This document shows positions 43,072 to 63,893 of a DNA stretch of 64,000 bases, in pieces. The stretch comes from Demequina phytophila (GTDB lineage Bacteria > Actinomycetota > Actinomycetes > Actinomycetales > Demequinaceae): contig NZ_BBLW01000001.1 of the NCBI RefSeq assembly GCF_000971135.1, forward strand, positions 248,001 through 312,000. The letters run 5' to 3'. The number at the start of each line of letters is the position of its first letter. Position 1 is the stretch's first letter. The position numbers and the translations under genes are program-made. The notes below the pieces were generated by a model, which saw nothing but the letters and a program-made list of their open reading frames with translations, made no database searches and was not told where the DNA came from.

Positions 43072-43169
43072 CGGGGGCCCGGTACGCAACATGGCGGCAA
43101 CTATCGCCCGCTAGGCTGAGGGGTGCCCCGCGAACGTCGCGGGGTCACCACCCCACGGAGGTCACCCGC

Positions 43170-44463: not shown

Positions 44464-45723
44464 TCAGGCGCGGGCGGGCTCCTCGCTCGCTGTCTCGGCG
44501 CCTGCGGGGACCTCGGCGGTGGCGGCCGCGCGACGTCGCGCCCGCGCGGTCGCCGCCCATGCCACGCCCGCGGTGATCGCGCAGGCGACGAACAGCACCG
44601 AGGAGAGGTACGGCAGCTGCTCGAGCCGCCCCTGGTCCACCTGCGCGCTCGCCAGCGCGGCACCGATCGAGGTGCCGGTGTAGATCAGCGACGAGTTGAT
44701 GCCGACCACCACATTCACGTGGCGGCCGGAGTGCCCGACGATGAGGGCCTGCAGCGGCGGGTTGATCGCCCACGAGCAGAATCCCCACGCGAGCAGCAGC
44801 AGGGCGGCCGGCAGCGGGCCGGACACCAGCGCGAGGCCTCCCACGGAGACCGCCGCCGCGACGCCGAGCGCCGTGAGGATCCGGGCGGGTCCGAGCCTGT
44901 CGGCGAGGCCGCCCAGGACGCCGTTGCCGGCGAGGCCCGCGATCCCGTAGCAGAGCAGCAGCGCGGACAGCAGCGCACCGGACGCGCCCGTGGTGGACTC
45001 CAGGAACGGCGCGATGAAGGTGTTGAGCCCACCCGTCGCCGCCCCCTCGAGCAGTGCGGTCGCGAGCGTCGCGCCCAGCACCAGAGCGGCCGAGGCCCAC
45101 ACGGTGGCAGCGCCGTGCTCGCGCCGGCGCGCCTCCGCGCCCGCGAGCCGCAGCTCCGCCTGCCAGGGGCGCAGGGCCGCGACGGCGACGCAGACCAGCA
45201 CCGCGAGCGTGCCGACCATGATGAATGCGGCGCGCGCGCCCACGGTGGCGCCGAGCAGGTTGCCCAGCGGTGCGCCGACGAGCGACGAGGCGACCATGCC
45301 GGTGAAGGAGATGGACAGCGCGCGCGAGCGATGCGCGCCCGCGACGATGCTGCCGGCGTGCACGGTGCACATGGGCACCACGCCGGCGACGGCGACCGCC
45401 TGCGCGACACGGGCGACCATCAGCTGCGACACGGTGTCCACCTGGGACACGGCGACGGCCGCGGCCGCCACCAGGGGCAGCGCGACCATCATCACCGTGT
45501 ACGGCTCGAGCCGGCGCACGCTCCACGCGATGACCGGCGCCGCGACGGCGTAGGCGAGGCCGAACACGGCGTTCGACCGCCCGACATCGGCAAGCGAGAT
45601 GCCCGTCTCCTCAGCGAACGCGGACAGCACGCCCGGCACCAGCATCGAGCCGAGCGTCGCCGCGAACACCGCGCCCGCGAGCACCCAGAGCGTCAGCAGG
45701 GTGCGACGCGAGACCCCGCTCAC
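44464..45723 (-). CDS. MFS transporter
   Basis: 419-residue major facilitator with 12 spans. The loop 2-3 region (GLAYAVAAPVIAWSVRRLEPYTVM) is a degenerate form of the family motif, and a charged central loop (LRLAGAEARRREHG) separates the halves. It is the last gene of the operon that starts with the peptide/opine-type binding protein; its GTG overlaps the isochorismatase stop. It may export a product or take up a substrate of the N-catabolic pathway. Confidence 0.88.
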   Translation of the reverse strand: MSGVSRRTLLTLWVLAGAVFAATLGSMLVPGVLSAFAEETGISLADVGRSNAVFGLAYAVAAPVIAWSVRRLEPYTVMMVALPLVAAAAVAVSQVDTVSQLMVARVAQAVAVAGVVPMCTVHAGSIVAGAHRSRALSISFTGMVASSLVGAPLGNLLGATVGARAAFIMVGTLAVLVCVAVAALRPWQAELRLAGAEARRREHGAATVWASAALVLGATLATALLEGAATGGLNTFIAPFLESTTGASGALLSALLLCYGIAGLAGNGVLGGLADRLGPARILTALGVAAAVSVGGLALVSGPLPAALLLLAWGFCSWAINPPLQALIVGHSGRHVNVVVGINSSLIYTGTSIGAALASAQVDQGRLEQLPYLSSVLFVACAITAGVAWAATARARRRAAATAEVPAGAETASEEPARA

Positions 45724-46328
45724 GCGTCGGCGGGAACGGCCGCGCCCTCGAGCGAACCCAGCCAGCGCATCGTCTCCGCGGACGTGACCAGGGAGCCGTG
45801 CTGGAGGTAGTGGATCATCTCGAGCGCGTCGTCGTGCGCCTGGAGCGAGGAGCCCATCACCACGTCGGTCACCACGTTGAGGTGGAAGTCGCGCTGGTGC
45901 GCGTCGACCGCGGTGTAGAGGATGCAGATGTCCGTGAAGCCGCCGATGAGCACGAGCGTCTCCGCCTTGTAGGCCTTGAGGACGATGTCGAGCTCGGTGC
46001 CGAAGAACCCGCTGTAGCGGCGCTTGCGGATGTGGAACTCGTCGGGCGTGGGCTCGAGGCCCTCGGCCAGCTCGGTGTACTTGTTGCCCTCGATGCAGTG
46101 CGGGCCCTCGGAGCCGTCGAGCTCGCGCCCGATGTCGGTGAGGTGCGGCTTGTGGACCTCCTGGATCCACACGACGGGTACGCCCTTGGCGCGGGCCTCC
46201 GCGACCATCGTGACGGCCTTGTCCCGCTGCGCGGGGATGTCGAACGGGTCGTCCTGGGACATGGGGCCGTCCATCGGGCCGCCCTGGAAGTCGACCACCA
46301 CGAGCACGGTGGAGCCGTGGATGTTCAT
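45720..46328 (-). CDS. Isochorismatase-fold cysteine hydrolase, copy 1
   Basis: 202-residue alpha/beta hydrolase of the isochorismatase-like (cysteine amidohydrolase) superfamily. The catalytic triad is visible as Asp13 (VVVDFQGG), Lys102 (RKRRYSGFF) and Cys135 (GGFTDICILYTAVDA). An unusual shared motif, HKPHLTDIGRELDGSEGPHC, lies between the first two. Such enzymes cleave small amides such as biuret, nicotinamide or ureido acids. ATG 46328 overlaps the second copy. Its place behind an importer and near allophanate hydrolase suggests removal of an amide from the imported compound. Confidence 0.9.
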   Translation of the reverse strand: MNIHGSTVLVVVDFQGGPMDGPMSQDDPFDIPAQRDKAVTMVAEARAKGVPVVWIQEVHKPHLTDIGRELDGSEGPHCIEGNKYTELAEGLEPTPDEFHIRKRRYSGFFGTELDIVLKAYKAETLVLIGGFTDICILYTAVDAHQRDFHLNVVTDVVMGSSLQAHDDALEMIHYLQHGSLVTSAETMRWLGSLEGAAVPADA

Positions 46329-46990
46329 GCGTCCTCCTTCGAGGTCTCGGTGGTGGGCTGCGGGAGCGCGTCGAGCCAGGCGTCGACCGCCTCGAGCGAG
46401 ACGAGGGCGTCGCGCTGGAGGTACTTCATCGCGCGCAGCGCGGCGTCGTGGAGCTTCTGGCCCGAGCCGATCACCATGTCGGTGACGGTCCGGAAGCGGT
46501 AGTCGAGCTGATGCGCGTCGACCGCGGTGTAGTGGATGCACACGTCCGTCATCCCGCCGATGAGGATGAGGGTCTCGGCCTTGTAGCCCTTGAGCACGAT
46601 GTCGAGCTCGGAGCCGAAGAACGCGCTGTAGCGGCGCTTCTTGATCAGGTACTCCTCGGGGCGGGGCTCGAGCCCGGGGTGGAGGTCGGTGCGCGGGTCG
46701 CCCTCGACGCAGTGGACGTTCTCATTGCCGTCGAGCTCGCGACCGATGTCGATCAGCGAGGGCTTGTGCACCTCCTGGATGAAGACCACGGGCACGCCCT
46801 TCGCGCGGAAGCGGGCGACCATGTCGACCGCCTTCGCGTTGCGTTCGGGCCGGCCGGGCATGTAGCCGGGCTTGTCCGCGCCGAACGACGACGGCTGGCC
46901 GCCGCCCTGGATGTCGACCACCACGAGGACGGCGTTGCCGACCACGTCGAGGGTGTCGGAGGGGGTGATGTCTGTCACCTGAAGTGGCAT
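46325..46990 (-). CDS. Isochorismatase-fold cysteine hydrolase, copy 2
   Basis: 221-residue paralog of the downstream gene with triad Asp26 (VVVDIQGG), Lys118 (IKKRRYSAFF) and Cys151 (GGMTDVCIHYTAVDA). It also has HKPSLIDIGRELDGNENVHC. The two differ mainly at the N-terminus and around residues 30-50 and 95-115, which shape the active-site entrance. They may act on successive or different amides, or form a heteromer. ATG 46990 lies 19 bp after the permease stop. Confidence 0.9.
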   Translation of the reverse strand: MPLQVTDITPSDTLDVVGNAVLVVVDIQGGGQPSSFGADKPGYMPGRPERNAKAVDMVARFRAKGVPVVFIQEVHKPSLIDIGRELDGNENVHCVEGDPRTDLHPGLEPRPEEYLIKKRRYSAFFGSELDIVLKGYKAETLILIGGMTDVCIHYTAVDAHQLDYRFRTVTDMVIGSGQKLHDAALRAMKYLQRDALVSLEAVDAWLDALPQPTTETSKEDA

Positions 46991-47009
46991 GAGGGGGTCC
47001 TTTCCGAGA

Positions 47010-48008
47010 TCAGGAGAGCCGGACGCGGGGGTCGACGGCCGCGAGCGCGACGTCGACCAGGGTGTTGAGGATCACGTAGACGGCGCCGAGGATGAGGCAC
47101 ACGGCAGCGATGGCCGGGAAGTCGCCGACGCCGATCGCGCCGGAGAGGTAGGAGCCGAGGCCGTTCCACGAGAACACCTGCTCGACGACCACCAGGCTCG
47201 ACACCATGAACCCCGCCTGAACGGCGAGGAGGGACAGCGCCGGCGAGGAGGCGTTGCGCAGCGCGTGACGGCGCAGCACCGTGCCCTCGCGCTCCCCGAG
47301 CGCGCGGGCGGTCCGCGCCCACGGCGAGCCGAGCGAGGAGGAGATGCCGTCCGCGAGCACGCGCGCCAGGGCGACGCCCGAGCCCACCGCGGCGGCGAGC
47401 GCGGGCAGCAGCAGGTGCTGGATCGCGTCCCAGGTGTAGGTGGGGCTGCCGTGCAGGATGCCGTCGAGGACGTAGAAGCCGGTCGCGTCCTCATAGGGGC
47501 CATAGGAGGAGCGGCCCGCGGCGGGGAGGGCGCCGTCCAGCCACTTGTAGAACACGAGCACGGAGAGCATCGCGATGAGGAACGACGGCGCGGACGCCGC
47601 GGAGAAGAACACGAAGCGCATGAACGCCCCGAACCGTCCCGGTCGCGAGTACAGCGAGGCGAGCGAGACGCCGATCACGACGGTGAGGGCGAGGGCCCAG
47701 CCCGCGAGCTCGAGCGTCGCGGGCAGGCGGGTCGACAGCTCGTCCGCGATGGGCCGCTTGGAGGAGAGCGAGATGCCGAAGTCGCCCTGGACGGCGCCCG
47801 CGACGAAGGACCCGAACTGCACGGGGATGGGGTTGTCGAGCCCGAGCTCCTCGCGCGCGGCCTCGACGGCCTCCGCGCTCGCGTTCACGCCGACGTACGT
47901 GCGGACCGGGTCGGAGTCCGCGACCTTGCCGAGGGTGAACACCAGCAGGGTGAGGAAGAACAGCACCACCGCGAGCGAGCCGAGGCGCTTGGCGACGAAG
48001 ACCAGCAT
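47010..48008 (-). CDS. Peptide/opine ABC transporter permease (DppB type)
   Basis: 332-residue permease with the N-terminal span typical of DppB (VAKRLGSLAVVLFFLTLLVFTLGKV), an extracytoplasmic loop, and the EAA-like loop GSPWARTARALGEREGTVLRRHALRNASSPALSLLA that docks the ATPase. It ends ...DVALAAVDPRVRLS, the usual DppB terminus. ATG 48008 starts 2 bp after the stop of the second permease gene. It forms the channel with that permease. Confidence 0.94.
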   Translation of the reverse strand: MLVFVAKRLGSLAVVLFFLTLLVFTLGKVADSDPVRTYVGVNASAEAVEAAREELGLDNPIPVQFGSFVAGAVQGDFGISLSSKRPIADELSTRLPATLELAGWALALTVVIGVSLASLYSRPGRFGAFMRFVFFSAASAPSFLIAMLSVLVFYKWLDGALPAAGRSSYGPYEDATGFYVLDGILHGSPTYTWDAIQHLLLPALAAAVGSGVALARVLADGISSSLGSPWARTARALGEREGTVLRRHALRNASSPALSLLAVQAGFMVSSLVVVEQVFSWNGLGSYLSGAIGVGDFPAIAAVCLILGAVYVILNTLVDVALAAVDPRVRLS

Positions 48009-48010
48009 GG

Positions 48011-48889
48011 TCACACACCCGTCCGCCGGAGCATGACGCGCAGGGCGTCGCCGGCATAGTTGAAGACGAAGGCCAGCAGGCCGATCGCGAGGCTCGGGAG
48101 GACCGCGACCCACCACGCGTTGAGGAAGTACTTCATGCCGTCCGAGGCCATGCGGCCGAGCTCGGGGGCCGGTGCCGGGGTGCCGAGGCCGATGAAGGAC
48201 AGCGCGGCGAGGGTCATGACGACGGCGCCGATGTCGAGGCTCGCCGTCACCACGACGGTGGGCGTGACCGCGGGCACCACGTGGCGCCACAGCAGCTTCC
48301 AGCCGCGCACGCCCGCGACCCGCGCCGCCTGGACGTGGGGCAGCGCGGCGACGCGGCGCACCTCGCCGCGCACCAGGCGGGCGTACAGCGGCCACCACAC
48401 GACGATGATGCCGATCATCGCGGATCCGAGGGACTGGCCGATCGCGGCGGCGATCGCCATCGCGATGATCATCGCGGGGAACGCGAGGAAGAGGTCGGTG
48501 AAGCGCATGAGCGCACTGTCGATCCACCCGCCCCTGAAGCCGGCGACCACGCCGATCAGCGTGCCGATCGCGGCGGCGATCAGCGTCACCACGACGGCGG
48601 CGAAGAGGCTGCGCTGCATGCCCGCGACCAGCCGGGTCGCCATGTCCATGCCGAGCACGTCGGTGCCGAGCAGGTGCCCGGGCGACAGCGGCGGCAGGAG
48701 CTGCTCGCCCGAGGGGATGATCGCGCTGTACGGCATGAGGACGGGGCCGACGACGGCGATCAGCACGGTCAGCGCCACCGCGATCAGCGAGAGCTTCTCC
48801 CCCATCCCGAGGGCGGACCACGCGCCGTCGGGACGGTCGGGGGTGGGCCGCTCGAGCCGCTTGAGCGTGCGCCTAGGCGAGTACAGCAT
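48011..48889 (-). CDS. Peptide/opine ABC transporter permease (DppC type)
   Basis: 292-residue permease with a cytoplasmic N-terminus, a first span near residue 35, then LLGTDVLGMDMATRLVAGMQRSL, the DppC hallmark, and the docking loop LPHVQAARVAGVRGWKLLWRHVVPAVTPTVVVTA. ATG 48889 has GAGG 7 nt upstream and overlaps the end of the ATPase gene by 17 bp. Confidence 0.94.
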   Translation of the reverse strand: MLYSPRRTLKRLERPTPDRPDGAWSALGMGEKLSLIAVALTVLIAVVGPVLMPYSAIIPSGEQLLPPLSPGHLLGTDVLGMDMATRLVAGMQRSLFAAVVVTLIAAAIGTLIGVVAGFRGGWIDSALMRFTDLFLAFPAMIIAMAIAAAIGQSLGSAMIGIIVVWWPLYARLVRGEVRRVAALPHVQAARVAGVRGWKLLWRHVVPAVTPTVVVTASLDIGAVVMTLAALSFIGLGTPAPAPELGRMASDGMKYFLNAWWVAVLPSLAIGLLAFVFNYAGDALRVMLRRTGV

Positions 48890-50591
48890 CGACGAGCCTC
48901 CGGCCGTAGTCCGTGGTGATGTCCTGCGCGAGCCGCTCGGCGCCGACCGTCTCGACGATCTCGCCGCCGGTCATGACGAGCACGCGGTCGGCGATCAGCC
49001 GCGCAGCGGCAAGGTCGTGCGTCACGAACATCACGGAGATGCCGAGCGAATGCCGGAGCAGGTTGATGAGGTTGAGCACCGAGCACGCGACGGACACATC
49101 CAGCGCGCTCGTGGGTTCGTCGCACAGCAGCACGGACGGCGGCACCACCACCGCCCGCGCGATCGCCACGCGTTGCTGCTGGCCGCCCGACAGCTGCGTG
49201 GGCCGGGCCGCGAGCACGGACTCGTCGAGGCCCACCAGCTCGAGGGTGCTGAGAGCGAGGGCGCGCATCTGGGCGCGCGACATGCCGGCACCCGTGGTGG
49301 TGTGCTCGATGCGCTCGCGCAGGAGCTCCTCGACCGTGCGCCACGGCGTGAGGGAGGCGCCCGCATCCTGGAAGATCACCTGGGTGCCCTCGCCTGCGAC
49401 ACCCTGCGAGTCGACGGAGCCGGTATCGGGCTTCTCGATCCCCGCCGCGATCCGCAGCAGCGTCGACTTGCCCGATCCGGACTCGCCGACGAGCGCGACC
49501 GCCTCGCGGTAACCGATCTCGAAGGACACGTTCGTAAGCACGTGGTTCCCCACCTTGCGCCCCTTGACGCGGGACCAGTAGGTCTTGTCGACCTCGTTGA
49601 CCGCGAGCGAGGGCCGGGTGACGTGCTCGACGAGCCGGACGTCGGTCAGGCCGCTTGCCGCTCCGACCGCCGCGGTGCGTCCCATGAAGCGCTCCCACTC
49701 GAGGTCGCCCGCACCCCACGCGTCGGCGACGCCCTCGTCCGGCCGCCCCTGCTCGCTCAACACGTCCCGCATGGACGCCACGACGGCCGGCTCGGGAGCG
49801 CCGACGGGGCGCATGCGGTCCGTGGTCAGGGTGATGCGGGAGGCCATGAGCCGCTGCGTGTAGGCGTCCTCGGGACGCGCGATGACGTCGCCGGCGGGGC
49901 CGGTCTCGACCACCAGGCCGTCCTTCATCACGGCGATGTCGTCGCACATGTGGCGGGCGACGCCCAGGTCGTGGGTGACGAAGAGGACCGCGCACCCGGC
50001 GCCCTCGATCGCCTCGCGCAGCACGCTCAGCACCTCGGCCTGCACGGACACGTCGAGCGCGGTGGTCGGCTCGTCGGCGACCAGGAGACGGGGCTGCGGC
50101 GCCAGCGCGAGCGCGATCATCACGCGCTGGCGCATACCGCCGGACAGCTGGTGGGGGTACTTCTTGAGCACCTCGCCCGCGCGGCGGATCTGGACGCGCT
50201 CGAGGGCGGCGACCGAGGCCTCGGCGGAGCCGGTGTAGCGGTTGAGCATCCGACCGATGGTCATGGTCGGGTCGAGCGAGCGCATCGGGTCCTGGAACAC
50301 GGACGTGACGTCGCGGCCGCGCACCTGCGCCCACGCGGGGTCCGTGATGGGGGTGAGGTCGCGGCCCGCGATGGCGATGCGCCCCGTCGCGTGCGCGGAG
50401 CCGTCCGCCGCGATGATGCCCTGGACGGCGGCGCCGATGGTCGACTTGCCCGAGCCGGACTCGCCGACGAGGCCCAGGCAGCGGCCCGCGGCGATCGACA
50501 GCGACACGTCCTGGACGGCGGTGACGACGCGTCCGCGGCCGCGGTACGTCACCGTGAGGTCGGAGACCGTGAGGACGGTCGGTTCGGCCAT
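48873..50591 (-). CDS. Peptide/opine ABC transporter, fused double ATPase (DppD-DppF)
   Basis: 572-residue fusion of two ABC domains that are often separate proteins. The first half has GESGSGKST, LSGGMRQRVMIALAL and LLVADEPTTALDV; the second has [24 protein letters not shown] and VLLCDEPTSALDV. A linker of about 80 residues joins them. Both halves look catalytically complete. ATG 50591 has AGGAGAGG upstream. The long in-frame extension upstream of this start is antisense-like and not coding. Confidence 0.94.
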   Translation of the reverse strand: MAEPTVLTVSDLTVTYRGRGRVVTAVQDVSLSIAAGRCLGLVGESGSGKSTIGAAVQGIIAADGSAHATGRIAIAGRDLTPITDPAWAQVRGRDVTSVFQDPMRSLDPTMTIGRMLNRYTGSAEASVAALERVQIRRAGEVLKKYPHQLSGGMRQRVMIALALAPQPRLLVADEPTTALDVSVQAEVLSVLREAIEGAGCAVLFVTHDLGVARHMCDDIAVMKDGLVVETGPAGDVIARPEDAYTQRLMASRITLTTDRMRPVGAPEPAVVASMRDVLSEQGRPDEGVADAWGAGDLEWERFMGRTAAVGAASGLTDVRLVEHVTRPSLAVNEVDKTYWSRVKGRKVGNHVLTNVSFEIGYREAVALVGESGSGKSTLLRIAAGIEKPDTGSVDSQGVAGEGTQVIFQDAGASLTPWRTVEELLRERIEHTTTGAGMSRAQMRALALSTLELVGLDESVLAARPTQLSGGQQQRVAIARAVVVPPSVLLCDEPTSALDVSVACSVLNLINLLRHSLGISVMFVTHDLAAARLIADRVLVMTGGEIVETVGAERLAQDITTDYGRRLVDAVLA

Positions 50592-50614
50592 GGTGCCTCT
50601 CCTTCGCGAGGGGC

Positions 50615-50656
50615 GGCCTCCCGTGGCGGCGTGAGGGGGCGCCGCCACGGGAGGCC
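50615..50656 (-). terminator. Attenuator hairpin after the peptide/opine-binding-protein gene
   Basis: Perfect 16-bp stem, GGCCTCCCGTGGCGGC (50615-50630) and GCCGCCACGGGAGGCC (50641-50656), with a 10-nt loop, between the binding-protein gene and the ATPase gene. As in the sugar operon, it probably protects the binding-protein mRNA and lowers downstream expression. Confidence 0.85.
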
Positions 50657-50671
50657 TGTTCGGGGTGGGCC

Positions 50672-52255
50672 CTACTGGCCCGGGGTGAGCTGCGTGAAGT
50701 CGAACGTGATGCCCAGCAGCGGGTAGCTCGCCGACTCGGCGCCCGTGATCCCCGCCTGGAAGGCTGCGGAGACCTTGAGGTCGGCGACCGTGTAGTAGTC
50801 GGCCGAGTCGGTGATCAGGTCCGTGACCTCGCCGTACAGGGAGTGGTCGCCGGTCTCGATGGCCTCGTCGAGGACAGCGTCGAGCCCCTCGATCTCCGGG
50901 TAGAAGAGATTGAGGCCACCGCTGGACGAGTACAGCAGGCGCGCCCAGGCGTCGGGGTGGGCGGCGTCGGGGAAGACGCTCATCAGCGTGATGTCGGGCG
51001 CCTTCTCGGGGTCGAAGACCGTGGACCAGTACGCGCTGGACTCCAGGCCGACCGACTCCGCGGTGATCCCCACGGTGTTGAGCTGTGCCGCGAGGTTGTC
51101 CGCGATGTCCTGCCCGCCGGGGACGTAGGACGGGTAGTTGATGGAGATCTTCTGACCCGCGAGATCGCCCTCGGCGAGCGCGGCGAGCGCGTCCGCGTCG
51201 TATTCGATGCCGGTCTGGTTGAGGTCGGAGTCGACCAGCGTCGACGGGAACACGCCCGTCGAGGTGGTGCCGAGCTCGCCGTACACGGACTGCACGATGC
51301 CGTCCCAGTCGACGCCGGACAGGAGCGCCTGACGGGTCTCGACGTCCGCGAGCGCGGCGCGGCCGGGGTTGAGGTAGACCACGGGCGCCATCATCGAGGG
51401 GTACGTGTACGCGTTGAGGTCCGCGTTCTGGCTGAGCGCGTCGAACAGCGGCTTGTTGGCGGAGCCGATGTAGCCGTCGAGCTCGCCGCTCTCCAGCTGG
51501 AGCTGGATGGTGTTGGTGGAGTCGAGGATGTGGAACTCGATCGACTCGTAGCCGCCGGTGTCGCCCCAGTAGGAGTCGTTCGCGGTGAGCTCGTAGTTGA
51601 CGCCCTCGTCGAAGGTGCCGTACTGGAACGGTCCGGTGCCGGCGGAGTTCGCGGCGAACCACTCGGCGTCGTCGCCGTGGGCGGTGAGCGCCTCCGGCGA
51701 GATCATCTTGAGGCCGAACGGCGACGCGAGGTAGTCGAGGAACGCGTCGTTCGGCGCCTCGAGGGTGAAGACCACCTCGGTGTCGGACGGGGTGTCGATC
51801 GAGGCGATGCCGCCCACCAGGTACGCGGGTCCGGACTCGCCCGCGGTGAGGAGGCGGTCGACGGACGGCTGCACCGCGGCGGAGGTGAACGGCGTGCCGT
51901 CGGCGAAGGTCACGCCCTCGCGGAGCGTGAACGTGTAGGTGAGGCCGTCCTCGGACACGGTCCACTCGGTCGCGAGCGACGGCACGATCTCCGCCTCCTC
52001 GGTGCCGGTCGCGTACTTGACGAGGCCCTCGTAGGCTGCGAGGACCAGGTTCATCTCGGAGCCGTTGTACGCGCTGCTCGGGTCGGGCGCCGAGATGTCG
52101 GAGGAGAGGCCCATGTCGAGCGTGGTGTCGACGTCGGCGGCGCCGGATGCTCCGGCCGACTGGCCGGGCAGCGACTCCTCGGCGCTCGAGCAGGCGGTGA
52201 GCCCGAGCGCCAGAGCGGCGGCTCCGGCGAGGGCGAAGGTGGTGCGGCGGTTCAC
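50672..52255 (-). CDS. Family 5 ABC substrate-binding lipoprotein (peptide/opine/nickel type)
   Basis: 527-residue lipoprotein, lipobox LGLTAC, with the SBP_bac_5 fold: SLATEWTVSEDGLTYTFTLREGVTFADGTPFTSAAV and the GTGPFQYGTF segment. It binds a solute, in this family anything from peptides to opines and small cations, for the DppBC-like permeases. GTG 52255 has GGAG 6 nt upstream. The palindrome at 52312-52325 lies on its promoter and matches the operators of the DUF1989 and carboxylase genes, so import is co-regulated with guanidine/urea breakdown. Confidence 0.93.
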   Translation of the reverse strand: MNRRTTFALAGAAALALGLTACSSAEESLPGQSAGASGAADVDTTLDMGLSSDISAPDPSSAYNGSEMNLVLAAYEGLVKYATGTEEAEIVPSLATEWTVSEDGLTYTFTLREGVTFADGTPFTSAAVQPSVDRLLTAGESGPAYLVGGIASIDTPSDTEVVFTLEAPNDAFLDYLASPFGLKMISPEALTAHGDDAEWFAANSAGTGPFQYGTFDEGVNYELTANDSYWGDTGGYESIEFHILDSTNTIQLQLESGELDGYIGSANKPLFDALSQNADLNAYTYPSMMAPVVYLNPGRAALADVETRQALLSGVDWDGIVQSVYGELGTTSTGVFPSTLVDSDLNQTGIEYDADALAALAEGDLAGQKISINYPSYVPGGQDIADNLAAQLNTVGITAESVGLESSAYWSTVFDPEKAPDITLMSVFPDAAHPDAWARLLYSSSGGLNLFYPEIEGLDAVLDEAIETGDHSLYGEVTDLITDSADYYTVADLKVSAAFQAGITGAESASYPLLGITFDFTQLTPGQ

Positions 52256-52311
52256 TGCTGGCTCCTTCGATGAGGGTTCGGGGGACCGTTGGGGGGAACG
52301 GTACGGAGAAC

Positions 52312-52325
52312 CTATCGGTCAATAG
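52312..52325. promoter_or_regulatory. TetR operator 1 of the N-catabolic regulon
   Basis: CTATCGGTCAATAG, 57 bp before the start of the substrate-binding-protein gene, part of AACTAT-N-ATAGGTT symmetry on the minus strand. It differs at two positions from CTATCGGTCGATAG-like sites at 55660 and 60815. Confidence 0.75.
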
Positions 52326-52347
52326 TTACATTCGGTCGCTGCCCGTG

Positions 52348-54114: not shown

Positions 54115-54791
54115 GCCTCCACCGCCGGGTCCGTCACGATCACGCGTAGTGGCGTGGGGTTGAAGTCGTTGCACGGGTTGTTGACCTGAGGGCAGTTGGA
54201 GATCACCACGAGCACGTCGCGCTCGGCGCGGAGCGCGACCCGCTTGCCCGGCGCGGACATGCCGTCGACGATCCCGAGCGTCCCGTCCGCCTCCACCGGT
54301 ACGTTCATGAACCAGTTGATGTTCGACACGAGGTCGCGCGGTCCCAGCCCGTGCCTCGCGCCCTCGAGCAGGAAGTTCTCGCGGCACGCGTGGTGGAACA
54401 GGGTGTGGTGCCCGTAACGCAGCGTGTTGGACTCCTTGGAGCAGGCGCCGCCGATGGTGTCCTGGCGGTCGACCTCGTTGCCCACGATGGTCATGAGCGG
54501 GTCGCCCTCGTTCGAGCGCAGCACGGAGCCGTCGACCAGGTAGGCGTGGCGCTGCGCGACCAGCGTCGCCTGCGCGCTGTACCGCACGTCGTGGTCCGCC
54601 GCGTCGTAGATGAGGCAGTCACCCGACTGGTTGCCGCCCACGTCGACGAGCGTCAGGACGTGCCCGGCGCGGACCACGCCTGACCAGCCCTCGCGCGGCG
54701 CGATCTCGTGGTCGAGCACGGCCGCACCCGGCACGTACGGCGTCGATCGGTCGAAGTAGGCGGCCTCGTGCGTGGCCCAGGTGACGGTCAT
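54111..54791 (-). CDS. DUF1989 protein UAAP2 (carboxyguanidine deiminase subunit type)
   Basis: 226-residue DUF1989 protein. The typical UAAP2 sequence is VGGNQSGDCLIYDAADHDVRYSAQ and GGACSKESNTLRYGHHTLFHHACRENFLLEG, with the conserved Cys probably a zinc ligand. Pairs of DUF1989 proteins beside a urea-carboxylase-like enzyme have been shown to form carboxyguanidine deiminase, which turns carboxyguanidine into allophanate. ATG 54791 overlaps the partner gene by 4 bp. The role is inferred from family and order. Confidence 0.9.
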   Translation of the reverse strand: MTVTWATHEAAYFDRSTPYVPGAAVLDHEIAPREGWSGVVRAGHVLTLVDVGGNQSGDCLIYDAADHDVRYSAQATLVAQRHAYLVDGSVLRSNEGDPLMTIVGNEVDRQDTIGGACSKESNTLRYGHHTLFHHACRENFLLEGARHGLGPRDLVSNINWFMNVPVEADGTLGIVDGMSAPGKRVALRAERDVLVVISNCPQVNNPCNDFNPTPLRVIVTDPAVEA

Positions 54792-55651
54792 CGGATCCCC
54801 CTCGCGAGCAGGTGCTGGTCGGTGTTGAGGTACGCGCGGGTGCGCTCGGGCGTCGCGGTCCACCACGGATCGGAGGGGGACGATGCGGCGGCGGCCCAGC
54901 CGTGGACGCGCAGGGGCCCCGTCCGGTAGCCCTCGGCGGGATCCAGCGGGTGGGCGGCGTTCGCCACGAGCAGGGTGAGGGGCATCTCCGCGACCAGGTC
55001 GACGGTCGCGCCCGCGCCGCCGTCGCCGGTCCACTCGAGGGAGCCGTCCGCGGCGACCCGCACGCCCTTGAAGAAGGACACGCTCGGCGGAATGTCGCGG
55101 GCCGTCAGCCCCTCCTTGGCGGCGGCGAGCAGCAGCAGCTCGCGGCCCGCCGCGGTGGCGGTGTGCGCGGCGCCCGCGCCGTAGCGCTCGACGTTGCCGG
55201 CGAGGGTGGTGACGCCGCAGAAGGCGTCGTGACGGCCGCCCGCGGCGTCGGCGACCACGGTCGCGAGCACGCGGCCGTCGCCGGACAGCAGCGGGTGCCC
55301 GGCGCCCAGGTACGCCTGCCACGGGATCTTCTGGGTGTCCGCGACGTTGAGCCGCTCCCCCGGGTTGAGCGCGCTCAGCACCACCACGTGGGCGCATGCG
55401 TCTCCGGTGACGTCCTCGAGGCGGATCCGCGTGCCGCGCGCCACCGTCATGTGCGTGTAGCCCGGGCCGGCGACGGTCTCCGCCCACACCAGGGTCGACG
55501 GATCCACGTCGGCGGGCGCGTACGGCGAGGAGGCCGGCGGCAGGTACGGCATGGCCTCGACGGCGGTGTCGGCACGTCCCCGCGCGTCGTCGCGCGCCTG
55601 GGCGAGCGTCGCGGTGCTCGAGCGGCGCCCCGCTCCACGGTCATCGGTCAC
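54788..55651 (-). CDS. DUF1989 protein UAAP1 (carboxyguanidine deiminase subunit type)
   Basis: 287-residue partner DUF1989 protein with UAAP1 features: VARGTRIRLEDVTGDACAHVVVLSALNPGERLNVADTQKIPWQAYLGAGHPLLS and a Cys in GGRHDAFCGVTT. The first about 30 residues are low-complexity and may not belong if a later start is used; GTG 55651 is supported by GGTGGAG just upstream. The operator at 55660-55673 lies 9 bp before the start, over the promoter. A copy of the dispersed 11-mer (54877) sits in the C-terminal Ala/Ser-rich stretch. Confidence 0.88.
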   Translation of the reverse strand: MTDDRGAGRRSSTATLAQARDDARGRADTAVEAMPYLPPASSPYAPADVDPSTLVWAETVAGPGYTHMTVARGTRIRLEDVTGDACAHVVVLSALNPGERLNVADTQKIPWQAYLGAGHPLLSGDGRVLATVVADAAGGRHDAFCGVTTLAGNVERYGAGAAHTATAAGRELLLLAAAKEGLTARDIPPSVSFFKGVRVAADGSLEWTGDGGAGATVDLVAEMPLTLLVANAAHPLDPAEGYRTGPLRVHGWAAAASSPSDPWWTATPERTRAYLNTDQHLLARGIR

Positions 55652-55659
55652 GGCTCCAC

Positions 55660-55673
55660 CTTTCGGTCGATAG
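55660..55673. promoter_or_regulatory. TetR operator 2 of the N-catabolic regulon
   Basis: CTTTCGGTCGATAG lies between the UAAP1-type gene and the divergent TetR gene, 9 bp from the former. It matches the sites at 52312 and 60815 at 11-12 of 14 positions. Confidence 0.75.
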
Positions 55674-55773
55674 GTACAGAGCGAGTGTAGGGCCCCTTTG
55701 TTTCCGCTCGATTTCGCGTGCGAGGCGCCCCGTCCCCGCGTGTCCGCAGGCGCTACTGTGGGGGCGATCCGCC

Positions 55774-56412
55774 ATGACGAACGCCGACACCGCCTCGACC
55801 CGCACCGACGCCCCGCGTCGGTCGCGCCCTCACGGCAAGGAGCCCGTGGGACGCGAGCGGATCCTCGATGCGGCGGCCCGGCTCTTCGTCGAGCAGGGCT
55901 ACGCGGCGACCACCACGCGTCAGATCTCGGCCGCGGTCGACATCAAGCAGCCGTCGCTGTACTACCACTTCCCCAACAAGGCGGCGATGCTCAAGGAGCT
56001 CTTGATCGAGACGGCGCGACCCTCGATCGACAAGGCGCGCGAGCTGCTGGCGGACACGTCCACGGACCCGCTCGAGCAGCTGCTCGCGCTCATCCGCTTC
56101 GACGTGCACCTGCTCGCATCCGGGCCGTCGAACATCGGCGCGCTCTACCTGCTGCCCGAGACCAACGAGCCGATGTTCGGCACGTTCCAGGCGCTACGTC
56201 AGGAGCTGGTCGGCGCCTACGGCGCGCTGCTGCGGCGGTCGATCGCCGCCGGCCGGGCCGACGTCGACGACCCGGCCGCGACGGCCGCGCTGCTGTTCTC
56301 CCTGGTCGAGGGCGTGATCCTGCGCCGCGCCGACGATCCGCGGCTGGATGCCGAGACCGTCGCGGACGGCATCGAGCAGGCGACGCTGCGCATCCTCGCC
56401 GCGCGCCGCTGA
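55774..56412 (+). CDS. TetR family regulator of the N-catabolic regulon
   Basis: 212-residue regulator. A basic disordered N-terminus precedes the HTH (GRERILDAAARLFVEQGYAATTTRQISAAVDIKQPSLYYHFPNKAAMLKELL) and a helical ligand domain. It is divergent from the DUF1989-atzF operon and convergent with the MBL gene. The three 14-bp palindromes nearby make it the obvious local repressor, with the imported compound, guanidine or a derivative as possible inducer. Start ATG 55774 is assumed; TACTGT lies 20 nt upstream. Confidence 0.9.
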   Translation: MTNADTASTRTDAPRRSRPHGKEPVGRERILDAAARLFVEQGYAATTTRQISAAVDIKQPSLYYHFPNKAAMLKELLIETARPSIDKARELLADTSTDPLEQLLALIRFDVHLLASGPSNIGALYLLPETNEPMFGTFQALRQELVGAYGALLRRSIAAGRADVDDPAATAALLFSLVEGVILRRADDPRLDAETVADGIEQATLRILAARR

Positions 56413-56433
56413 CCACACCCCCGCGCGCGGGGG

Positions 56434-57258
56434 TCACTCGACCCGCACGCGCTCCCCGCGCATCGCGGCGGCCCACGCCCAGAACTCGGGGTCGTGACCC
56501 GGCCACACCTCGACGCCGGCCGCGTCGAGGTCCGCGAGGCGGTCGATCGCCCGCTGCGCACGGACGTCACCATCCTCCTCCGGAGTCCAGCCGCACGGCG
56601 TCCGGGTGGTGATGTTCGCACGCAGATCGGCGGCATCGCAGGCGAGCACCACCGAGCGGCTCGGAAGGTCGACCCGGAACGACTGGTGGCCGGGCGTGTG
56701 GCCACCCGTGTCGAGTGCGGTGAGGCCGGGCGCGAGCGGCGTGTCGCCGTCGAGCACACGCACCGAGGACTCCGCGTCGAGCAGGTCCGACGCGATGACG
56801 AACTCGGGGCGTGACGCGCCGTCGCGCACCCACTCCCATTCGCGGCGCTGCACCAGCACCGGCACGTGGGGCGGCAGGCTCGGCGCGAGACCCGTGTGGT
56901 CGACGTGCGCGTGGCTGATCGCGCAGCCCGCCATCGTCTCCCACCCGAGCCCCACGCGCCCGAGGGCATCCCGCAGCGGATCTCCGGGCGGGATGATCGG
57001 CGTGTAGCCCTCGTAGTTGTAGTGGCGAGCGCGCGCGGCCTCGTCGCGCACGTGCGCGAGGTTGAAGCCGGCATCGACCAGCACCCAGCCGTCGGCGTAC
57101 TCCACCGCGCTCGCCGTCACGGGCTCGAGGAGGTAACGGTCGCGGCGACCGCCCCGGATCGAGACGCCCTCGCTGATGGGTTCGTAGCCGACCACGAAGG
57201 CGTGCAGGGCGACGGGACGCCCCGAGACCGCCAGCGCGCCGTCGAACTCCTTCACCAC
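56434..57258 (-). CDS. MBL-fold hydrolase of the N-acyl homoserine lactonase type
   Basis: 274-residue metallo-beta-lactamase-fold hydrolase with the metal motif ISHAHVDHTGLAP, DTGGHTPGHQSF and a late Asp/His pair (CDAADL, WPGHDPEF). It resembles AHL lactonase-like proteins but the substrate is open. GTG 57258 has GGAGG 6 nt upstream and begins 1 bp after the carboxylase stop, so the two are co-transcribed. That makes hydrolysis of a lactone, lactam or cyclic ureide feeding the carboxylase a plausible role. Confidence 0.87.
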   Translation of the reverse strand: MVKEFDGALAVSGRPVALHAFVVGYEPISEGVSIRGGRRDRYLLEPVTASAVEYADGWVLVDAGFNLAHVRDEAARARHYNYEGYTPIIPPGDPLRDALGRVGLGWETMAGCAISHAHVDHTGLAPSLPPHVPVLVQRREWEWVRDGASRPEFVIASDLLDAESSVRVLDGDTPLAPGLTALDTGGHTPGHQSFRVDLPSRSVVLACDAADLRANITTRTPCGWTPEEDGDVRAQRAIDRLADLDAAGVEVWPGHDPEFWAWAAAMRGERVRVE

Positions 57259-57259
57259 G

Positions 57260-60200
57260 TCAGACCTCCGTCCGGAGCGCCACGATCGCGTCTCCCGGTG
57301 CGACGGTGGCACCCGCGGGCGCGAGCACCGACTCGACGGTCCCGGCATGCGCCGCGAGCACCCTGGTCTCCATCTTCATCGCCTCCACGACCGCGACCGT
57401 ATGCCCTGCCTCGATGCGCTGCCCCTCCGACACGAGCACCTTCCACACGTTGGCGGCGAACGGCGCCTCGACGCCGATGCAGCCCTCCGCGAGCGCCGGC
57501 GGCGGCGCGGGAGCGGCCGGCTCGACGTCGCGATCGAACTCCCCCGCCGCGGTCCACCGGTCGCGCTCCTCCGCGAAGGCCCGGCGCTGCACGGTCCGGA
57601 AGCGGGAGATCGACTCGGCGTTGTCGTCGAGGAACCGCGCGTGGTCGGCGAGCGAGAGCTCACCCGCGGTGATCTCGGGGCGCCACAGGCCCGCGGAGAA
57701 GTCGGCGCGCAGGCGCAGCAGCTCGTCCGCCTCGACGGGGTACCAGGTGATGCGGTCGAAGAAGTCGAGCAGCCACGGGCGCGAGCCGTCGATGGCGCGG
57801 TCGGCGCCCGCGAAGGACGCCCACCGGTCCCACACCTGCGTGGTGCGCCCCACGAACTGGTAGCCGCCGGGGCCCTCCATGCCGTAGATGCAGAGGTACG
57901 CGCCGCCAATGCCGACGGAGTTCTCCGCCGTCCACGTGCGGGCGGGGTTGTACTTGGTGGTGACCAGCCGGTGCCGCGGGTCGAGCGGCGTGGCGACGGG
58001 GGCGCCGAGGTACACGTCGCCCAGGCCCAGCACCAGGTACTCGGCCTCGAAGAGCGTGCGGTAGACGTCGTCGACGCTCTCCAGGCCGTTGACCCGCCTG
58101 ATGAACTCGATGTTCCAGGGGTTCCACGGGGCGTCGTCGCGGACGCCCGCCTCGTAGCGGGCGATCGCCTCGCGCGTCGCCGGGTCGTCCCACGACATCG
58201 GCAGGCGCACGTGACGGCTCGGGACCACCAGGTCCTCGGCGCCCGCGACGTCCGCCGCGAGCGCGAGGAGCCGCTCGAGCGCCTCACGGTTCGCGTGCGC
58301 GGGGTCCCCGAAGGTGACCTGGAGCGACCGGATGCCAGGGGTGAGGTCCCGCAGGCCCGGGAGCGCCGCGTCGCGCACGCGCTGCTGGAGCACGTGGACG
58401 CGCGCGCGCAGCATCAGGTCGAGCTCCTGCGGGCCGAGCTCGATCAGCAGGCTGTCGTCGCTCTGGCGGCGCACCACCACGCCGTCGCGGTCGGCGAGCA
58501 CGCCGCGCGGGGCGCCCGGCTGCTCGGGGATCGCGGGCTCGAGGCGCACGAACCGCACCTGGTCGCCGGCCGCGAGCTGGCCGAGCTTCCACCGCTCCCC
58601 CTTCGCGACCGTCACGGGGGTGACGAACCCGCCGAGGCTGGGCCCATCGGGGCCGAGCAGCACCGGGGTGTCCCCGGTGAAGTCCATGCCGCCCACCGAG
58701 TACGGGGTGTCGTGGATGTTGGACGGGTGGAGGCCCGCCTCGCCGCCGTCGGCACGCGCCCACGAGGGCTTGGGTCCCACCAGCCGCACGCCGGTACGGT
58801 CGGAGTTGAAGTGCACCGCGTAGGCGGCGGTCAGGATGGTGTCGACGTCCTCGGGCGTGAAGAAGTCGGGGGCGCTGTGCGGCCCGTCGAGCACCCCGAT
58901 CTCCCAGGCGGTCCCGATGGCGGGACGCTCGACATCCACCGCCACCTCGACAGGGAGGGCCGCCGCACCGGGACCGGGCGCGAGCGGCAGCTCGTCGCCG
59001 GTGTGCAGCGCGCGGCCCGCGTGGCCGCCGAACCGCCCCAGCGTGAACGTCGCCCGCGATCCCAGGTACTCGGGGACGTCGATGCCGCCGCTCACCAGGA
59101 CGTACGCGCGCAGGCCCGCCTCGACGCGGCCCACGGTGAGCACGGAGCCGGCGGGGACGTCGATCGCCTCCCACTGCGCCACGGCACGGCCGTCGACCGT
59201 GACCGGCACGGGCGCGCCGGTGACGCACACGCGAGCGTCCCTGGACATGCGCAGCGACGGCCCCGACACGGTGCATTCGAGGCCCGCGGTGCCGGGGGCG
59301 TTGCCGAGGATGCGGTTGCCGAGCGTGAAGCTGCGGTCGTCCATGGGGCCCGACGGCGGCACCCCGATGTGCCACAGCCCGGTCCGGCCGGGGCCCTCCT
59401 GGACGGTGGTGAGGAAGCCCGCGTCCTCGACGCGGATGCCGCCCGCCGGCGCGGTGATCTCCGCGCCCAGGCTCGCGGTGGTGTGCGCGCCGTCCGCCAC
59501 CACCGGCTCGTTCGCGATCCGGCGCAGCAGCGCGAGGTTGGTGTGCACGCCGTCGATGCGGGTCGCGTCCAGCGCGTCCGCCTGACGCGCCCACGCCTCC
59601 GCGCGGTCCGCCCCCGCGGTGACGACCTTGGCCAGCATGGGATCGAAGCGCATGCCCACCTCGGTGCCGGAGCGCACCCATGTGTCGACGCGCGCGCCCT
59701 CGGGCAGCTCGACGTGGGTCACCGTGCCGGGGCTGGGGCGGAAGTCCGCGACGGGGTCCTCGGCATAGACGCGGCTCTCGACGGCCGCACCGGAGACGGG
59801 CACCTCGCCGGTCCCTGCGTACGGCGCCAGGAAGCTCGCGTCGCCCGCGGCGAGGCGGATCATCCACTCCACCAGGTCCACGCCGGTGACGGCCTCGGTG
59901 ACGGGGTGCTCGACCTGGAGGCGCGTGTTGATCTCAAGGAACGACGCCTCGCCGGTGTCCGCGTCCAGCACGAACTCGACGGTGCCGGCGCTGCGGTACC
60001 CGACGCTCGCGCCCAGCGCGCGGGCCGTCGCGTGCAGCCGCTCGCGCACGTCGGGCGCGAGGCCGAACGCGGGCGCCTCCTCGACCACCTTCTGGTTGCG
60101 GCGTTGCAGGGTGCAGTCGCGGTCGCCCAGCGTCACCACGCTGCCGTCGCCGTCGCCGAAGATCTGGACCTCGACGTGCCGCGCGCGCTCGATGTAGCGC

Positions 60201-60805
60201 TCTGCGAACACGCCGCCGCCGACCACGGCGGCGATGCGGGCGACGCCCTCGTACGCGTCGGAGACCTCGTCGAGCGCGCGCACCACCGCCATGCCCTTGC
60301 CGCCGCCGCCGGCGGCCGCCTTGAGGATCACGGGCAGCCCGATCTCCGCGATCCGGGCCCGCGCGTCCTCCGCGTCGCGCAGCTCCGGCGTCGCCGCGGA
60401 GGTGGGCACACGCGCCGCGATCGCCCGCTCGCGGGCGGCCTGCTTGTCGCCGAACAGCGCGATCTGCTCCGGGCGGGGCCCGATGAAGACCAGCCCCGCG
60501 GCCTCCACCGCGGCCGCGAAGCCGGCGTTCTCGGAGAGGTAGCCGTAGCCGGGATGGATGCCCCACACGCCGTGCGCGAGGGCGACCTCGATGAGCTGCT
60601 GCGCGTCGAGGTAGGGGTCCAGGTCACCGCGGCGCTCCAGCCGCACCACCCGGTCGGCCTGCTCGATGTGGAGGCTGCCGCGGTCGTCGTCGGTGTACAC
60701 GCCGAGCGTGGTGCCGCCCCACGCCGTGACCGTGCGGAAGATGCGGCACGCGATCTCGGCGCGGTTCGCCACCATGACAGTTCGCGGGGTCGTCTGGGTC
60801 GTCAT
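57260..60805 (-). CDS. Biotin-dependent urea/guanidine carboxylase
   Basis: 1181-residue multidomain enzyme. A biotin carboxylase (residues about 1-450; ATP loop KAAAGGGGKGMAVV, EINTRLQVEHPVTE) is followed by the KipA-like AHS2 part (DAGFLTTVQEGPGRTGLWHIGVPPSGPMD...), the KipI-like AHS1 part (MSWDDPATREAIARYEAGVRDDAPWNPWNIEFIRR...) and a C-terminal biotinyl domain with VEAMKMETR (Lys near residue 1144). It carboxylates urea to allophanate or guanidine to carboxyguanidine. The two DUF1989 genes favour guanidine. ATG 60805 lies just below an operator shared with the rest of the regulon. Confidence 0.95.
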   Translation of the reverse strand: MTTQTTPRTVMVANRAEIACRIFRTVTAWGGTTLGVYTDDDRGSLHIEQADRVVRLERRGDLDPYLDAQQLIEVALAHGVWGIHPGYGYLSENAGFAAAVEAAGLVFIGPRPEQIALFGDKQAARERAIAARVPTSAATPELRDAEDARARIAEIGLPVILKAAAGGGGKGMAVVRALDEVSDAYEGVARIAAVVGGGVFAERYIERARHVEVQIFGDGDGSVVTLGDRDCTLQRRNQKVVEEAPAFGLAPDVRERLHATARALGASVGYRSAGTVEFVLDADTGEASFLEINTRLQVEHPVTEAVTGVDLVEWMIRLAAGDASFLAPYAGTGEVPVSGAAVESRVYAEDPVADFRPSPGTVTHVELPEGARVDTWVRSGTEVGMRFDPMLAKVVTAGADRAEAWARQADALDATRIDGVHTNLALLRRIANEPVVADGAHTTASLGAEITAPAGGIRVEDAGFLTTVQEGPGRTGLWHIGVPPSGPMDDRSFTLGNRILGNAPGTAGLECTVSGPSLRMSRDARVCVTGAPVPVTVDGRAVAQWEAIDVPAGSVLTVGRVEAGLRAYVLVSGGIDVPEYLGSRATFTLGRFGGHAGRALHTGDELPLAPGPGAAALPVEVAVDVERPAIGTAWEIGVLDGPHSAPDFFTPEDVDTILTAAYAVHFNSDRTGVRLVGPKPSWARADGGEAGLHPSNIHDTPYSVGGMDFTGDTPVLLGPDGPSLGGFVTPVTVAKGERWKLGQLAAGDQVRFVRLEPAIPEQPGAPRGVLADRDGVVVRRQSDDSLLIELGPQELDLMLRARVHVLQQRVRDAALPGLRDLTPGIRSLQVTFGDPAHANREALERLLALAADVAGAEDLVVPSRHVRLPMSWDDPATREAIARYEAGVRDDAPWNPWNIEFIRRVNGLESVDDVYRTLFEAEYLVLGLGDVYLGAPVATPLDPRHRLVTTKYNPARTWTAENSVGIGGAYLCIYGMEGPGGYQFVGRTTQVWDRWASFAGADRAIDGSRPWLLDFFDRITWYPVEADELLRLRADFSAGLWRPEITAGELSLADHARFLDDNAESISRFRTVQRRAFAEERDRWTAAGEFDRDVEPAAPAPPPALAEGCIGVEAPFAANVWKVLVSEGQRIEAGHTVAVVEAMKMETRVLAAHAGTVESVLAPAGATVAPGDAIVALRTEV

Positions 60806-60814
60806 GCGGGGACT

Positions 60815-60828
60815 CTATCGTACGATAG
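60815..60828. promoter_or_regulatory. TetR operator 3 of the N-catabolic regulon
   Basis: CTATCGTACGATAG is a perfect 14-bp palindrome 9 bp upstream of the carboxylase start codon. Related sites lie at 52312 and 55660. Confidence 0.8.
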
Positions 60829-60883: not shown

Positions 60884-60941
60884 CGCCCGGGTGCGCCGGG
60901 ACGATGCGGCGGCCGGCGCATCGTCCCCCGTCACCCGGGCG
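60884..60941. repeat. Nested palindrome, second copy
   Basis: Outer arms CGCCCGGGTG (60884-60893) and CACCCGGGCG (60932-60941) enclose GGGACGATGCG (60898-60908) and CGCATCGTCCC (60917-60927), all perfect. The layout and the GCGGCC centre match the element at 43007-43071. It lies between adhE and the carboxylase promoter. Confidence 0.85.
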
Positions 60942-60964
60942 AAGGGAAGGCTCCGGGAACGACA

Positions 60965-60998
60965 CAGGGCCCCGACACCGGTGGGTGTCGGGGCCCTG
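60965..60998 (-). terminator. adhE terminator
   Basis: Perfect 15-bp stem, CAGGGCCCCGACACC and GGTGTCGGGGCCCTG, with a 4-nt GGTG loop, about 50 bp after the adhE stop. Confidence 0.92.
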
Positions 60999-63761: not shown

Positions 63762-63893
63762 CTTCGTCTGGCTCCTAGTGCCGGGTGCCGGCCCCCTCCG
63801 GGCCTCGATCCCCATGTCCTTCACGGTAGGGGCGGCTCGCGCCGATCTCGCGGGGCAGAGGTCCCGGGGACCATGGGCCTACTACCAGGCATT

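Follow-up and report, generated by a model that had tools for sequence, protein, structure and literature searches.

A putative TetR-controlled regulon of Demequina phytophila links a guanidine carboxylase pathway to an ABC importer and a pair of isochorismatase-like hydrolases

The locus described here lies in a 64,000-nucleotide stretch of the Demequina phytophila genome (contig NZ_BBLW01000001.1, positions 248,001 to 312,000; the whole stretch is called the window) and comprises genes for a guanidine carboxylase, the two subunits of carboxyguanidine deiminase (CgdA and CgdB), allophanate hydrolase (ALH), a TetR-family regulator, an ABC importer with its substrate-binding protein (SBP), two isochorismatase-like hydrolases (IHL1 and IHL2), an MBL-fold hydrolase, an MFS transporter, and a metal-dependent amidohydrolase (AH1). 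Judged from sequence, these genes look like one regulon under TetR-type control, and the chances appear evenly balanced that it serves the uptake and full breakdown of a guanidino compound larger than guanidine. The case is built on the gene set, four shared operators, conservation in relatives, the guanidine type of the carboxylase, and a genome-level tie between IHL and CgdAB; an imported compound larger than guanidine, which we infer from these, would fit.

A palindrome, CTATCGNNCGATAG, was found at four sites in the 2.98-Mb genome when up to one mismatch was allowed, each upstream of a unit of the locus (Table 1) and none elsewhere, in agreement with the TetR-type control proposed in the initial annotation. 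From this placement we infer that the TetR protein would bind the palindromes. The 14-bp palindrome of the carboxylase gene was spotted first and a look-alike at cgdA second, and a pattern scan then added the sites of the SBP and AH1 genes. The four window sites compare with a mean of 0.17 and a maximum of 1 in 60 shuffles, and a backward control pattern gave one site in the whole genome, against four for the operator. Two circumstances tell against these figures: the pattern was defined from the first two sites, already seen, and with up to two mismatches the window still held four sites while the shuffles averaged 1.74 and 12 of 100 reached four. Across six IHL-carrying Demequina genomes, 23 of 26 operator sites fall inside the locus, as do three of the four in Demequina genome G116 (genomes and loci of the collection carry G and L numbers). 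The site upstream of the SBP gene is also present in L045, L053, L012, L014, L099, and L109, and persists in the last three although cgdB sits on another contig. Outside Demequina, genome-wide site numbers did not exceed the control in G008, G022, G204, and G228, and were 5 versus 3 in G021, so that only the position of a site is informative there.

No operator site with up to two mismatches was detected in 11 Cellulomonas-group, Agreia, and Streptomyces loci, the TetR proteins of which, where found, were 33-40% identical to that of the window; nor was a common palindrome present in the gap between the AH1 and SBP genes across nine Cellulomonas, Streptomyces, and Agreia loci (eight genomes). 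A variant palindrome, CTGTCGNNCGACAG, stands beside cgdA in other genera (L100:6989, L107:18773, L111:10703) and about 1.7 kb from cgdA in L106, with a looser form in L098; a broader family of TetR guanidine regulators may use it as their operator. Riboswitch control was ruled out by Rfam scans, which found no guanidine riboswitch in window positions 42000-64000, where the single match (P33) was under the gathering score, and no match at gathering score in seven related loci. The word TetR does not appear in the main text, so far as available, of a review on guanidine (PMC12186494), and no paper on Demequina with guanidine was found in the open-licence PMC literature.

The genome collection held 138 relatives of the IHL proteins, and 80 loci were kept and compared by tblastn with 15 window genes. 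The whole gene set, including the MBL, IHL1, IHL2, MFS, and AH1 genes together, was present in eight Demequina loci, which upholds the reading as one functional set and its conservation in relatives. AH1 belongs to the locus: it has the same operator upstream, and in each of the seven further Demequina loci its gene likewise lies next to that of the MFS transporter. Two loci of Cellulosimicrobium and Cellulomonas (L029, L031) carry the same genes as the window in the order TetR-AH1/SBP-ABC-perC-perB-IHL-CgdA-CgdB-ALH-MFS (perC and perB are permease genes), that is, reordered and minus the carboxylase, the MBL gene, and the second IHL, and parts of this order recur in six more Cellulomonas-group loci (L019, L024, L026, L027, L030, L080). 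The segment TetR-AH1/SBP-ABC-perC-perB-IHL was seen with CgdAB not nearby in L003, L032 (Streptomyces), L025, and L028 (Agreia). The order TetR-CgdA-CgdB-ALH-SBP-ABC-perC-perB-IHL1-IHL2 was found in L045 and L053, and SBP-ABC-perC-perB-IHL1-IHL2, again with CgdAB not nearby, in L012, L014, and L033. Importer and hydrolases are thus not mere neighbours of the carboxylase, being conserved with it and sharing its operators, although the importer occurs in Demequina G116 with the hydrolases missing. The Demequina genomes G116 and G411 have carboxylase and CgdB with no IHL in the genome, and the MBL, MFS, and AH1 genes are absent from the 20-kb stretches around their carboxylase and CgdAB genes. 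The SBP of G116 is the least conserved of the shared genes (49% identity versus 68-90% for the others), and its locus, with a divergent SBP and without IHL, MBL, MFS, and AH1, is a natural contrast for the substrate.

IHL relatives also occur in other settings. Those at L038, L052, and L043 lie in gene clusters for amine catabolism, whose other members are copper amine oxidase, glutamine-synthetase-like, Rieske, PTE-family, GMC, and aldehyde dehydrogenase proteins, not all of them at each locus, and Roseobacter plasmid operons (L004, L005) combine an IHL relative with an amino-acid-type ABC importer, a DMT transporter, and ornithine cyclodeaminase, to which L005 adds SugE and RidA. Given these contexts, the IHL clade is broader than the present locus.

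The tie between IHL and CgdAB was examined in an order sample of 396 genomes and a class sample of 394, with thresholds of 1e-180 (order) and 1e-165 (class) for carboxylase, 1e-45 (order) and 1e-30 (class) for IHL, and 1e-50 for CgdB (1e-40 for 72 genomes chosen for IHL). Carboxylase was found in 48 genomes of the order sample, CgdB in 45, and IHL in 19; CgdB was present in all 19 IHL genomes and in 26 of the 377 without IHL (Fisher 2e-20), in a test that, like the other co-occurrence tests, ignores kinship, which counts against it. No carboxylase was found in three of the 19, and this, together with the constancy of CgdB, points to carboxyguanidine as the IHL product; the IHL proteins probably serve mainly for something other than the trimming to guanidine or urea envisaged in the initial annotation. 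The 72 genomes chosen for IHL cover 76 of the 80 loci (L012, L013, L084, and L086 being left out) and had CgdB in 61 cases, compared with 42 of 394 in the class sample. In 15 of the 61 no carboxylase was seen: eight Cellulomonas-group genomes (six Cellulomonas, a Cellulosimicrobium, and a Micrococcales metagenome-assembled genome), S. shenzhenensis, three Micromonospora, two Jiangella, and M. allomyrinae. Searches of the eight Cellulomonas-group genomes and S. shenzhenensis gave nothing above single-domain matches, and a re-search of the last seven carboxylase-free genomes and of G018 (as G339) with the carboxyltransferase part gave only 48-115-bit matches; G339, from the order sample, is the same genome as G018 (L031). 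G247, an IHL genome in one contig, had no carboxyltransferase match at 1e-10. IHL and CgdAB adjoin in the eight Cellulomonas-type genomes in which no carboxylase was found, and ALH follows cgdB in seven of the eight loci, the contig ending in the other (L019). Among the 84 CgdB genomes of the order and class samples, IHL was present in all five without carboxylase and in 20 of the 79 with it (Fisher 0.0017, or 0.006 once G190, one of the five and 88% complete, was dropped), and none lacked both. G488 and G625 were rejected as carboxylase-free, since carboxylase pieces were found in both, and were counted as having the enzyme.

The carboxylase, left as a guanidine or urea enzyme by the initial annotation, is of the guanidine type and not the urea type. 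Its residues 708 and 930 are both Asp and align with positions 1330 (Asn there) and 1584 (Asp kept) of the K. lactis urea amidolyase; Asp at 1330, where urea carboxylase has Asn, and Asp at 1584 are given as the marks of guanidine carboxylase in passages of PMC11410670. Urea carboxylase was thereby ruled out by Asp at position 1330. The same Asp1330 occurs in ten carboxylases beside CgdAB in the loci retrieved (L093, L094, L098, L100, L104-L107, L111, L112), in contrast to Asn1330 in the carboxylases of Demequina loci L101-L103, the genomes of which have no CgdB match, while those beside CgdAB in L072 and L075, of another, split type, have Met. Carboxyltransferase parts without an attached biotin carboxylase adjoin cgdB in several actinobacteria (L072, L075, class sample). 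The urea-type locus of L101-L103 (Demequina G158, G225, and G248) also encodes allophanate hydrolase, a different ABC importer of the Opp type, and a homologue of AH1 (54-58% identity).

Table 1. Operators and genes of the locus (window coordinates).
Feature	Position	Strand	Remarks
Operator 1, CTATCGTACGATAG	60815-60828		perfect palindrome; 9 bp upstream of carboxylase ATG at 60805
Operator 2, CTTTCGGTCGATAG	55660-55673		inside cgdA/tetR divergent promoter
Operator 3, CTATCGGTCAATAG	52312-52325		intergenic, upstream of SBP gene
Operator 4, CTATCGCCCGCTAG	43101-43114		about 55 bp upstream of likely AH1 start
Guanidine carboxylase	57260-60805	-	biotin-dependent; TIGR02712 1553 bits (cut-off 1304)
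MBL-fold hydrolase	56434-57258	-	AiiA/lactonase-like; HxHxDH present
TetR-family regulator	55774-56412	+	divergent from cgdA
CgdA, carboxyguanidine deiminase subunit	54788-55651	-	UAAP1, DUF1989; TIGR03425 274 bits (cut-off 206)
CgdB, carboxyguanidine deiminase subunit	54111-54791	-	UAAP2, DUF1989; TIGR03424 308 bits (cut-off 285)
Allophanate hydrolase (ALH)	52348 to about 54114	-	amidase and C-terminal domain; TIGR02713 638 bits (cut-off 511)
Substrate-binding protein (SBP)	50672-52255	-	SBP_bac_5; peptide/nickel/opine type
Fused double ATPase of ABC importer	48873-50591	-	
Permease, DppC/NikC-like	48011-48889	-	
Permease, DppB/NikB-like	47010-48008	-	
IHL1, isochorismatase-like hydrolase	46325-46990	-	PF00857 118 bits; triad D26-K118-C151
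IHL2, isochorismatase-like hydrolase	45720-46328	-	PF00857 124 bits; Asp-Lys-Cys triad intact
MFS transporter	44464-45723	-	drug-efflux-like; far under Cmx/CmrA cut-off; overlaps IHL2 stop
AH1, metal-dependent amidohydrolase	43170-44459	+	outside the interval first considered; faces MFS gene

Pfam and NCBIfam profiles bore out the proteins named in the initial annotation, and both isochorismatase-fold proteins have intact Asp-Lys-Cys triads. CgdA and CgdB are two adjacent DUF1989 proteins, both over their NCBIfam cut-offs, as expected of CgdAB. The ends of the cgdA, cgdB, and ALH genes overlap (the ALH profile scan used an open reading frame (ORF) from 54174), and the MBL-fold hydrolase ORF begins directly downstream of the carboxylase stop. 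A dedicated nickel importer was rejected, the SBP and permeases being far under the NikA, NikB, and NikC cut-offs; the fused ATPase does pass TIGR02770 NikD (357 versus 319 bits), and no nickel enzyme was recognised among the genes of the locus. Long antisense ORFs of the window are the expected product of 70-75% GC. A bifunctional aldehyde-alcohol dehydrogenase gene, adhE (61047-63824), adjoins the locus, likewise in G116 and G172, and between it and the carboxylase promoter there are a 29-nt imperfect inverted repeat (within 60884-60998) and a perfect 15-bp hairpin (60965-60998), perhaps terminator-like.

Counts for the IHL pair cover 18 genomes with 19 loci, as L015 and L112 come from the same genome. 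In the phylogenetic tree, the bootstrap of which was not fully settled, IHL1 and IHL2 formed two clades of 17 rows each (support 98/100 and 100/100), the whole set of 106 IHL rows held together at modest support (88/86), and GuuH, BiuH, and a Rhizobium homologue grouped elsewhere (100/84). On this sequence evidence, IHL1 and IHL2 are an old pair. The D. phytophila IHL1 and its D. silvatica counterpart share 98% identity. The Asp-Lys-Cys triad of IHL2 was intact in all 18 paired genomes, whereas the catalytic Cys of IHL1 was kept in 14 and lost in four: Microbacterium rhizomatis and Herbiconiux ginsengi have Ala instead, Nocardioides mangrovi has Ser, and G228 has Thr. In N. mangrovi and G228 the Lys has moreover become Arg and the DIGRELDG loop is missing; the losses look like two events. 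His153, Gln192, and Asp194 of IHL1 were kept in all 18; in IHL2, position 153 is Leu throughout and Asp194 occurs in four. By reading of an alignment that contained BiuH and not TrtA, Gln215 of BiuH and Gln202 of TrtA fall within about one column of IHL1 Gln192, and Gln202 of TrtA reaches into the neighbouring subunit, as described in parts of PMC7948467. Loss of the Cys only in IHL1 and never in IHL2 suggests, as the simplest reading, an IHL1-IHL2 heteromer with IHL2 as the catalytic partner. The predicted structure of IHL1 (pLDDT 85) has the family fold, with a TM of about 0.70 to BiuH and the uncharacterised 3hb7 as top match, and gave no lead to a substrate. A search of open-licence PMC papers for an isochorismatase with pseudoenzyme and heterodimer found none.

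The preferred explanation would run as follows. The SBP_bac_5 importer would take in a guanidino compound, which AH1 and the MBL protein may cut or open. IHL1 and IHL2, which probably form a heteromer with IHL2 as the constant catalyst and IHL1 as a donor of residues near the dimer interface, would then hydrolyse an acyl- or carbamoyl-guanidine such as guanylurea to carboxyguanidine. CgdAB acts on carboxyguanidine and is the second step after guanidine carboxylase; here it would turn carboxyguanidine into allophanate, and ALH would release ammonia and CO2. The carboxylase would recapture free guanidine arising from CO2 loss or taken from outside, the MFS protein may export an excess or toxic intermediate, and TetR would probably be lifted by guanidine or the substrate. 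CgdAB kept without a carboxylase needs another maker of carboxyguanidine, and IHL probably supplies this compound itself, for example from guanylurea. Isochorismatase-like hydrolases free ammonia from terminal carbamoyl groups, and TrtA makes carboxybiuret, according to sections of PMC7948467; by the same carbamoyl chemistry guanylurea would yield carboxyguanidine. GuuH is reported, in parts of PMC11399263 and PMC11271267, to convert guanylurea to guanidine and ammonia. That the present IHL proteins act on guanylurea itself is a guess by analogy. Somewhat short of an even chance is given to the more specific proposal of a second entrance to the pathway, in which a heteromeric IHL, with IHL1 prone to become a pseudoenzyme and IHL2 catalytic, would make carboxyguanidine from an imported carbamoyl- or acyl-guanidine, so that CgdAB and ALH bypass ATP-dependent carboxylation; this would be the sole route, with a single IHL, in the Cellulomonas group, and would stand beside the carboxylase in Demequina, with TetR replacing riboswitches.

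Several observations weigh against this explanation. The G116 locus (L093) has importer, carboxylase, CgdAB, and ALH yet no IHL. IHL genes occur in amine-catabolic clusters of Micromonospora, Microbacterium, and Curtobacterium loci, and CgdB was not found in 11 of the 72 IHL genomes, so that the IHL clade has other uses. Of the seven genomes beyond the Cellulomonas group in which no carboxylase was found, only one (L038) had cgdB within about 10 kb of IHL. G247 had no ALH gene in its 20-kb stretch, and no genome-wide search for that gene was made in any carboxylase-free genome. The triad is intact in the window's own IHL1. The IHL proteins also fall outside the group formed by GuuH and BiuH, the GuuH compared being the presumed one of strain MET and not that of strain GU.

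An unlikely though substantial alternative, near the view of the initial annotation, is that a larger import (a guanidino acid, a conjugate, or a cyclic guanidine) is trimmed by AH1, MBL, and IHL proteins to free guanidine, with the carboxylase as main entry and IHL cutting an amide or ureido group without forming carboxyguanidine. The resemblance of AH1 to Zn-dependent arginine carboxypeptidases and prolidase-type amidohydrolases and of the MBL protein to lactonases would suit such trimming, as would the joint presence of MBL, IHL1/2, MFS, and AH1 in the eight Demequina loci and their joint absence around the G116 and G411 genes, but in the eight Cellulomonas-type genomes with IHL beside CgdAB and no carboxylase found, free guanidine would have no use. 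Ordinary guanidine assimilation, in which guanidine is what the importer takes up and IHL1/2, AH1, MBL, and MFS lie nearby but serve other functions, is improbable: the common operator upstream of the SBP and AH1 genes, the survival of the gene set through reordering in the Cellulomonas group, and the tracking of CgdB by IHL in 19 of 19 genomes all speak against it, even though in G116 the carboxylase, CgdAB, ALH, and importer genes, marked by the operator, occur without the others, and guanidine ABC importers are described beside the carboxylase pathway in portions of PMC12186494.

It is very improbable that IHL1 and IHL2 are triuret and biuret hydrolases feeding allophanate directly to ALH. 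Triuret loci hold two isochorismatase-like hydrolases beside atzF, according to parts of PMC12625717, and the IHL1 model matches the BiuH fold; however, the constant partner in the order sample is CgdAB, which biuret does not need, and membership of the BiuH/TrtA group was ruled out by the NF050097 scores (52 and 59 bits; cut-off 370), by the separate clade, and by Tyr in both proteins at the second active-site lysine (K145) of the presumed BiuH. That BiuH was named by its position beside atzD on pRL10, and the NCSH and RutB labels were taken from record annotation. Detoxification of a guanidino antibiotic, inactivated by the hydrolases and exported by the MFS protein, is hardly credible: the transporter is drug-efflux-like and streptothricin hydrolase is isochorismatase-like, but a regulon that combines complete release of nitrogen with import through a binding protein fits assimilation better.

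Among known systems, the guanylurea pathway of Pseudomonas mendocina GU/MET comes closest. In it, as here, an isochorismatase-like hydrolase (GuuH) acts upstream of the carboxylase, CgdAB, and AtzF (PMC9800807, in part), so that the initial claim of no described pathway is not supported as worded. In pMET-2, of which 50 of 90 kb were seen, the cysteine hydrolase taken for GuuH, so named by its position beside a nucleoside deaminase gene, stands among ABC importer genes, as do the IHL genes here. The present locus differs in having two IHL proteins of another clade (25 and 29% identical to this presumed GuuH, which groups with BiuH), an SBP_bac_5 rather than a sulfonate-type importer, the extra AH1 and MBL proteins, TetR-type operators, and relatives without carboxylase. 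It shares with the riboswitch-controlled guanidine carboxylase operons of Raoultella and Klebsiella an Asp1330 and Asp1584 carboxylase, CgdAB, ALH, and an ABC importer, but no riboswitch was found, palindromes are shared beside a TetR gene, and hydrolases are added. The triuret/biuret pathway (TrtA, BiuH, AtzF) likewise has two isochorismatase-like hydrolases and an allophanate hydrolase; here the hydrolases are under the BiuH cut-off and lack the second lysine, and CgdAB is present. CgdAB and the metformin hydrolase MetCaCb, heteromers with one inactive subunit, are also side-by-side paralogues of which one partner sheds catalytic residues in some species (PMC11271267, in part), but the present pair has the isochorismatase-like fold and its complex is putative.

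The locus thus builds on a known guanidine pathway and extends it by an unusual pair of hydrolases and, plausibly, by a new way in. It provides a putative case of TetR/operator control over guanidine genes, together with paired hydrolases of which one sheds its catalytic cysteine. The occurrence of CgdAB and IHL without carboxylase would imply another natural source of carboxyguanidine, and hence a natural guanidino nutrient not yet recognised, which bears on the question of the natural origin of guanidine and on guanylurea, a metformin residue.

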